From Sphingobacterium deserti (GTDB taxonomy: Bacteria; Bacteroidota; Bacteroidia; Sphingobacteriales; Sphingobacteriaceae): a DNA stretch of 64,000 nucleotides. The stretch spans positions 62,001-126,000 of the forward strand of contig NZ_JJMU01000061.1 of assembly GCF_000757725.1 (NCBI RefSeq), in the 5' to 3' direction. Position numbers and translations under genes: made by a program. Positions 7,320 through 7,728 of this stretch are shown one piece after another; within the stretch, counting starts at the first letter, position 1, and each line of letters starts with the position of its first letter. Under the pieces are notes generated by a model. That model was not told the origin of the DNA. It saw nothing but the letters and a program-made list of their open reading frames with translations, and searched no databases.

Positions 7320-7385
7320 TTATACAAGATGTTTGTTTTACACTCGCAGCGATCGGGGCATGTGGTCATTCTCAAGGCTGATGTA

Positions 7386-7420
7386 CAAAGATAGGGGAGT
7401 GCATGCCTATCCATAATCAA
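7386..7420 (-). promoter_or_regulatory. Possible internal metY promoter
   Basis: TATCTTTG at 7393-7386 fits the Bacteroidota -7 consensus TAnnTTTG exactly, with TTG at 7420-7418; the 24-nt spacer is longer than usual. It lies downstream of the riboswitch, so if active it would give riboswitch-independent metY expression. Weak because of the spacer. Confidence 0.3.
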
Positions 7421-7426
7421 GAATGA

Positions 7427-7522
7427 CTAACGCATTCGTGCAATGAACGCGGTTAGAAAACTCGCCAATGCTACTGAATATACTACTAAATTGAAAAAAT
7501 GTAACTGTTGTTCTGCTATCAT
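7427..7522 (-). CDS. 31-residue ORF directly after SAM riboswitch
   Basis: The ATG (7522-7520) begins at the base immediately after the 3' arm of the riboswitch P1 stem, and the frame ends at TAG 7429-7427. The peptide starts MIAEQQLHFF, has a hydrophobic centre (NLVVYSVALASFLTAFIA) able to span a membrane once, and ends RMR. There is no Shine-Dalgarno sequence, as usual in this phylum. It could be a real mini-membrane protein or a leader peptide whose translation is controlled by SAM binding and which in turn affects transcription into metY. Chance cannot be excluded without conservation data. Confidence 0.45.
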   Translation of the reverse strand: MIAEQQLHFFNLVVYSVALASFLTAFIARMR

Positions 7523-7650
7523 GTCTTATCTCATTTATATGCTCCAAGGCGGTATTGCCTCAGACAGGAATTGGCACCTTTTCAACATGTGCTGAAGGTT
7601 GCCAGTGGGTCATCGAGCCAGTCTCTCGCCACTTCTTTATAAATCAAGAC
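7523..7650 (-). promoter_or_regulatory. SAM-I (S-box) riboswitch upstream of metY-hom
   Basis: On the minus strand the sequence matches the SAM-I aptamer core in order: P1 5' arm GTCTTGAT (7650-7643), the GAGAGACTGGCTCGATGA core, the CACTGGCAACC junction, a P3 hairpin (TTCAGCACATGTTGAA), AAGGTGCCAATTCCTG, a P4 hairpin (GAGGCAATACCGCCTT), and the P1 3' arm GAGATAAGAC ending at 7523. Its ligand would be S-adenosylmethionine, and it sits upstream of metY and hom, a textbook location. No clear terminator hairpin follows; instead the P1 3' arm abuts the ATG of a 31-codon ORF, suggesting translational rather than intrinsic-terminator control. Confidence 0.93.
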
Positions 7651-7697: not shown

Positions 7698-7728
7698 CAA
7701 ATATAGTTGTTTTTATAGATAATCCAAA
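7698..7728 (-). promoter_or_regulatory. Promoter of the riboswitch-metY-hom transcript
   Basis: TTTG (7728-7725), 19-nt spacer, TATATTTG (7705-7698): an exact match to the Bacteroidota housekeeping promoter. Transcription would start near 7691, about 40 nt before the riboswitch. Confidence 0.8.

Follow-up and report, generated by a model that had tools for sequence, protein, structure and literature searches.

A SAM-I riboswitch abutting a conserved leader ORF upstream of metY in Sphingobacterium and related genera: a possible two-input switch

Background

Riboswitches are usually seen to act on a terminator or on the start site of the gene that they control. In the ubiG operon of Clostridium acetobutylicum, an S box is combined with a Cys T-box, and one sulfur operon reads both SAM and Cys-tRNA, as is proposed below for metY. 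The ubiG system differs in that it uses the T-box and an antisense RNA, not a leader peptide, and in that its two sensors are not nested.

Leader ORFs rich in Cys codons have been described for Actinobacteria, where conserved terminators are missing and Rho has been suggested to act (PMC1262725), and for Mycobacterium (Canestrari 2020, as cited in PMC9031893). As outlined there, these leaders share with the ORFs reported here their shortness, Cys runs near the stop codon, association with sulfur genes and the lack of conserved terminators, but no riboswitch is described with them, whereas here the ORF begins right at the base of a SAM aptamer and also contains Met codons. The uORFC-8-2 motif before cysS of Rhodobacterales is also a Cys-codon uORF (PMC8632094), with tandem Cys codons, hairpins and a terminator; in that account it differs from the metY leader in having no aptamer and in belonging to another gene and another phylum. 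An Arg-Leu-Arg uORF before hflX is mentioned in the same source. In Sinorhizobium, a SAM-II riboswitch exerts translational control of metA, with a terminator located between two AUGs (PMC9373788). It resembles the present case in that a SAM riboswitch would act on translation in both, but its two AUGs share one reading frame, and the abstract of that report names no Cys/Met leader peptide. Attenuators have been surveyed (PMC2965389), and leader ORFs in general have been treated for Bacteroides (PMC7366714).

Here we analyze the metY leader of Sphingobacterium deserti, contained in a stretch of 64,000 nucleotides (the window), together with its relatives. Each half of the arrangement, the SAM-I riboswitch and the leader peptide, is known already; no report of a SAM riboswitch coupled to a Cys/Met leader peptide was found in the open-access papers searched.

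Loci compared

The genus set consisted of one metY-type SAM locus each from 92 of 93 Sphingobacterium genomes, leaving out G072, in which the aptamer match was weak. The set of other genera comprised 72 metY loci taken from 111 genomes sampled within the family. L025 is truncated by a contig end, and L114 was dropped as a duplicate of L177. A stricter automated ORF rule picked the wrong ATG or P1 in L085 (genus) and in L165, L169 and L171 (other genera), although the ORFs are present there. Values of pN/pS were obtained from 26 independent close pairs, the genus and the other genera being pooled. Outside the family, 69 SAM-I loci of the class (29 + 40), a sample of the matches, were inspected; their downstream genes were labelled by short motifs, and L228 (cysH) and L248 (metY) were checked further.

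Organization of the metY leader region

The features of the locus are listed in Table 1. The aptamer lies well above the gathering score of RF00162 (44.4) and belongs, in sequence and structure, to the SAM-I (S box) family. By its anatomy, however, its platform would act on the leader ORF and not on an intrinsic terminator or the start site of the metabolic gene itself. The sequence-only reading of this DNA had placed the end of the aptamer at 7523 and the ATG at 7522, and this was borne out: the last base of the P1 extension is C7523 and the leader begins at A7522. The leader peptide, with no Cys and a single internal Met, ends in Ile-Ala-Arg-Met-Arg.

Table 1. Features of the metY leader region of S. 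deserti, numbered by window position
Feature	Position	Strand	Remarks
Candidate leader promoter	7728..7698	-	TTTG (7728-7725), 19 nt, TATATTTG (7705-7698); sequence reading
P1 extension, 5' strand GTCTT	7650-7646	-	covaries with 3' strand in relatives
SAM-I riboswitch aptamer, RF00162	7645-7532	-	complete, 1-108; 78.8 bits
P1 extension, 3' strand AAGAC	7527-7523	-	abuts leader ATG; sequence reading and duplex prediction
Leader peptide ORF, 31 codons	7522-7427	-	MIAEQQLHFFNLVVYSVALASFLTAFIARMR, then stop; in frame in relatives
Alternative hairpin over Arg-Met-Arg codons	7456-7427	-	particular to this genome
Conserved CGA-ATG-CGT-TAG (Arg-Met-Arg-stop)	7438-7427	-	sequence reading and relatives
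Stop-codon hairpin	7427..7365	-	5' arm 7427-7417, 3' arm 7375-7365; no U-tract behind
metY, O-acetylhomoserine sulfhydrylase type, PF01053	7301-5994	-	
Homoserine dehydrogenase gene, PF00742	5923-4742	-	70 bases behind metY

The candidate promoter, which we take to resemble the Bacteroidetes -33/-7 consensus, is probably that of the metY leader, and the homoserine dehydrogenase gene is probably cotranscribed with metY. Directly upstream of the leader are three tandem tRNA-Phe genes (anticodon GAA) with equal scores (8184-7802, minus strand). These are followed by an intrinsic terminator (7801-7774), the only one with a U-tract that was found; it lies upstream of the aptamer, and none was detected downstream of the aptamer in the window. 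The earlier statement that no terminator hairpin follows the aptamer is correct for U-tract terminators but overlooks a hairpin of 11 pairs whose 5' arm has the stop codon's G as its first base. Folding of the whole metY leader by minimum free energy was not unusual (z -1.46 and -0.70). The same genome carries two further SAM-I aptamers, neither with a leader ORF, before genes that we take to be metE and metF.

In predicted duplexes, the end of the P1-extension helix lies between positions -2 and +2 relative to the ATG in 87/91 genus loci and in 49/60 loci of other genera, and its sequence varies with pairing kept (GTCTT/AAGAC, GTTTT/AAAAC, GGTTTT/AAACC, GGATT/AATC and TTCAAT/ATTGAA). Since the end of this extension lies, in most loci, no more than two bases from the ATG, and since its sequence covaries, binding of SAM should hide the leader start and block initiation of the small ORF, a suggestion of the sequence-only reading that the relatives thus support.

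Conservation of the leader ORF

The order aptamer-ORF-metY is kept in 92/92 metY loci examined in the genus and, judged from this, is more than chance. Counted from the first base of the P1 3' strand, the ATG of the genus ORFs follows after 15-20 bases, and the ORFs have 19 to 46 codons, none with an in-frame stop. All 92 contain CGA-AUG (Arg-Met) in frame (as CGAATA, with Ile for Met, in L074), although the distance from the ATG to this element takes about 15 distinct lengths. In the other genera, 64 of the 72 metY loci have an aptamer and 63 of these 64 have the ORF. The sole exception, L119 (G110), has the SAM-I aptamer directly before the metY ATG and lacks a leader ORF. No comparable ORF was found in the 8 metY loci of other genera that had no RF00162 match in the stretch examined. 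The ORF is therefore conserved together with the riboswitch, which was the check named in the sequence-only reading.

The peptide itself is another matter. That reading had described a hydrophobic peptide, perhaps a membrane peptide with a role of its own. The window's peptide is indeed hydrophobic (best 17-residue Kyte-Doolittle mean 2.22), but it is one of only 3/91 genus peptides hydrophobic enough for a membrane segment, along with 4/60 from other genera. The pN/pS of the leader ORF was 0.83, against 0.82 and 0.62 in two shifted frames, so that general purifying selection on the peptide was not found in the 26 pairs, and NCBIfam and Pfam searches with the leader peptides gave no match above the cut-off. 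A functional small membrane protein was rejected, as neither a conserved hydrophobic segment nor purifying selection was present. What is kept is the position, the open frame and the last codons, with the body of the peptide drifting almost neutrally, which gives the ORF the appearance of a leader peptide.

Codons before the stop

In the other genera, the ORFs mostly terminate in Cys/Met runs, typical C-termini being CMCMCCCCC, NMCCCMC, CCMCMCC and RMRQFICCCCC. Cys makes up 280 of 1174 residues (24%) in the last half of these peptides and 9 of 1086 in the first half; in the genes of the window it accounts for 70 of 14184 codons (about 0.5%). Between close pairs of other genera, the Cys codons have undergone 33 synonymous and 34 non-synonymous changes, compared with 13 and 67, respectively, for the remaining codons (Fisher p = 3e-5). 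Within Sphingobacterium, Cys codons have not been retained (4 synonymous and 30 non-synonymous changes).

What Sphingobacterium retains is a short ending. Arg-Met-Arg closes 50 of the 90 parsed genus ORFs; the next codon after the in-frame CGA-ATG (n=94) is Arg or Cys in 85 cases; and in the window's class CGA-AUG-CGN is directly followed by the stop. The second Arg codon varies freely at its third base; a codon in this place that starts with TG is TGT or TGC in 17/17 cases (genus plus other genera), and L062 has Leu instead of the second Arg. Both this ending and the Cys/Met codons before the stop point to a leader-peptide attenuator. The motif CGAATGYGNTAGTCG was found at 52 places in the 93 genomes, 50 of them at a metY leader. 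Because the first Arg before Met is encoded by CGA in 109/132 cases, compared with 11% of Arg codons in the window genes, some of the constraint may act at the level of the RNA and not of the amino acids. A pairing partner for CGAATGCGN in the RNA of relatives was sought and rejected, none scoring above shuffles (mean 11.57 vs 11.74).

Hairpins between the leader ORF and metY

In the window's (TAG) class of 57 loci, the G of the stop codon opens a helix whose partner lies 29-70 bases on. Pairing at all six positions was found in 51/57 loci (shuffles: mean 8.8, maximum 15), with compensatory exchanges at several positions. In a sister class, the Met-His codons themselves supply the 5' side of a hairpin with a U-tract behind it. 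Terminator-like sites were counted in 24/34 loci of the sister class (5.0 expected), in 15/58 of the window's class (4.2 expected) and in 21/63 of the other genera (8.8 expected).

Taken together, the metY leaders have i) a short ORF, open and in frame, between promoter and biosynthetic gene (92/92 in the genus and 63/64 in other genera), ii) enrichment of codons for amino acids of the pathway, Cys and Met, in the last half (family set), and iii) a hairpin overlapping the sensing codons or the stop (51/57 in the window's class), all of which are features of attenuators. The intrinsic terminator with U-tract of the classical trp type is absent from the window and present in the sister class. 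The system therefore seems to work like an attenuator, and we do not claim it as a classical one.

Sequestration of the metY start was rejected as the output: for ribosomes modelled on the stop codon or five codons upstream, the start had a predicted accessibility of 0.64 with or without the mask (56 loci of the window's class). As it is practically unaffected by ribosome position, the model makes transcription the more likely output. From the leader stop to metY, C exceeds G in 91/91 genus loci and in 97% of the 63 others, a Rho-type composition that is present but not diagnostic, since it may be usual for leaders here.

Other elements are seen in some loci. Between the leader stop and metY of L153, L155, L159, L160 and L165-L171, a conserved CTTCC ... 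GGAAGG-YCC...GGR-TACGC looks like two stacked hairpins. In L125, L139, L140, L144, L146, L150, L151, L152, L154 and L158, pairing is possible between an ACACGT-like sequence behind the stop codon and an ACGTG-like sequence further downstream; for L139, L140 and L144, the former could also pair with the Cys codons, with a U-rich tract behind, and a terminator/antiterminator pair is possible there.

Proposed mechanism and alternatives

We consider it reasonably probable that the SAM-I riboswitch gates initiation of the leader peptide and that the ribosome translating it controls read-through into metY. The geometry, frame, codon bias, covariation and co-occurrence with the aptamer were observed; from them we infer the effect of the ligand, the stalling, the direction of control and termination as the output. 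With SAM bound, pairing in P1 and its extension would reach the base immediately preceding the AUG, and the leader would not be initiated; the hairpin starting from the stop codon (in one clade, inside the Met codons) could then form, and transcription into metY would stop. When SAM is low, the leader would be translated, and a ribosome that waits at the Met/Cys codons near the C-terminus for lack of charged tRNA, or that dwells at the stop, would cover the 5' arm, prevent the hairpin and allow transcription of metY. The leader would thus contain two sensors in series, SAM being read first and Met/Cys-tRNA second. The leader in the window has lost its Cys codons, and since its hairpin lacks a U-tract, the termination step may need Rho. 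What holds the ribosome in the home genus may be a shortage of Met-tRNA, slow decoding of CGA or the nascent Arg-Met-Arg, all of which are candidates.

Termination by Rho, the main idea of the sequence-only reading, could also be the whole mechanism: at low SAM, translation of the ORF would do no more than protect the nascent transcript from Rho, its codons sensing nothing. The missing U-tract in the window and most of its class and the excess of C before metY agree with this, but the same excess may be common to leaders in these genomes, and the window's leader ORF itself has a C/G of 0.84. Rho shielding explains neither the Cys/Met codons beside the stop, conserved at the amino acid level in other genera, nor the covarying stop-codon hairpin, and we regard it as unlikely, if the foremost of the alternatives. 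Somewhat less probable still is an arrest peptide in Sphingobacterium, in which the nascent Arg-Met-Arg, or slow decoding of CGA, at the stop holds the ribosome instead of a lack of Met-tRNA. It would account for the fixation of Arg-Met-Arg/Cys-stop in the window's class while the Cys runs were lost, and for the preference for CGA and the lack of an RNA partner that would explain CGAATGCGN; moreover, Arg-Leu-Arg motifs are known from drug-dependent stalling leaders, as noted in PMC8632094. On the other hand, the second Arg is replaced by Cys and once by Leu, and the other genera have plain Cys/Met runs.

The remaining explanations deny the leader peptide any such part. If the ORF were incidental and only RNA elements mattered, the strong nucleotide conservation of the CGAATGYGNTAGTCG motif and its near confinement to metY leaders would follow, but not a frame kept in every genus locus despite varying length and free of stops, nor a third base that is free after CG and restricted to T or C after TG; this is very improbable. 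A hydrophobic membrane peptide serving methionine uptake or sensing, suggested by the window's own peptide, is hardly credible given the scarcity of hydrophobic relatives, the pN/pS close to that of the control frames and the lack of a family match. The small ORF thus resembles a membrane protein in one genome, yet is not one.

Occurrence outside the family

In the sample from outside the family, an ORF of the leader type precedes 3/6 SAM-controlled metY genes, the other 3 having no Cys/Met ORF, as well as 1/2 metX, one cysH-cysD pair and one other gene. It was found before 0/37 metH and 0/8 metB/C-type genes. Because it accompanies metY, metX and cysH and not the latter two types, the ORF, to judge from these gene labels, goes with the use of sulfide and sulfate and not with SAM control in general.

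On a wider and more tentative view, which we put forward as a possibility a little short of the probable, a nested two-input switch would be old in Bacteroidia: the SAM riboswitch would license a Cys/Met leader, so that reading of metY, metX and cysH requires low SAM and, on top of it, a shortage of Met- or Cys-tRNA, and in Sphingobacterium the sensor would have been shortened to an Arg-Met-Arg-stop holding the ribosome on the stop-codon hairpin. If true, one leader of less than 400 bases would provide serial logic for SAM and aminoacyl-tRNA, with the riboswitch apparently acting on another sensor, and this would explain how sulfide assimilation is kept off when the supply of either methionine or cysteine suffices. 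The natural variants (Cys runs, Met-His runs and Arg-Met-Arg-stop) offer material for testing the sensing codons and the terminating hairpins.

Two loci of the outside sample are worth noting. In L251 (G300, minus strand), a SAM-I aptamer is followed by an ORF ending in ..AAACCCCQKFAACCCKC, by cysH (PAPS reductase) and by a cysD-like gene; the layout repeats, at sulfate reduction and in a different family, the wiring of the metY leader. L253 (G249) has a SAM-I aptamer and a short Cys-run ORF (MRRAGMGCCCCCWLA), which may be due to chance, before a gene that presumably encodes an ATP-grasp protein.
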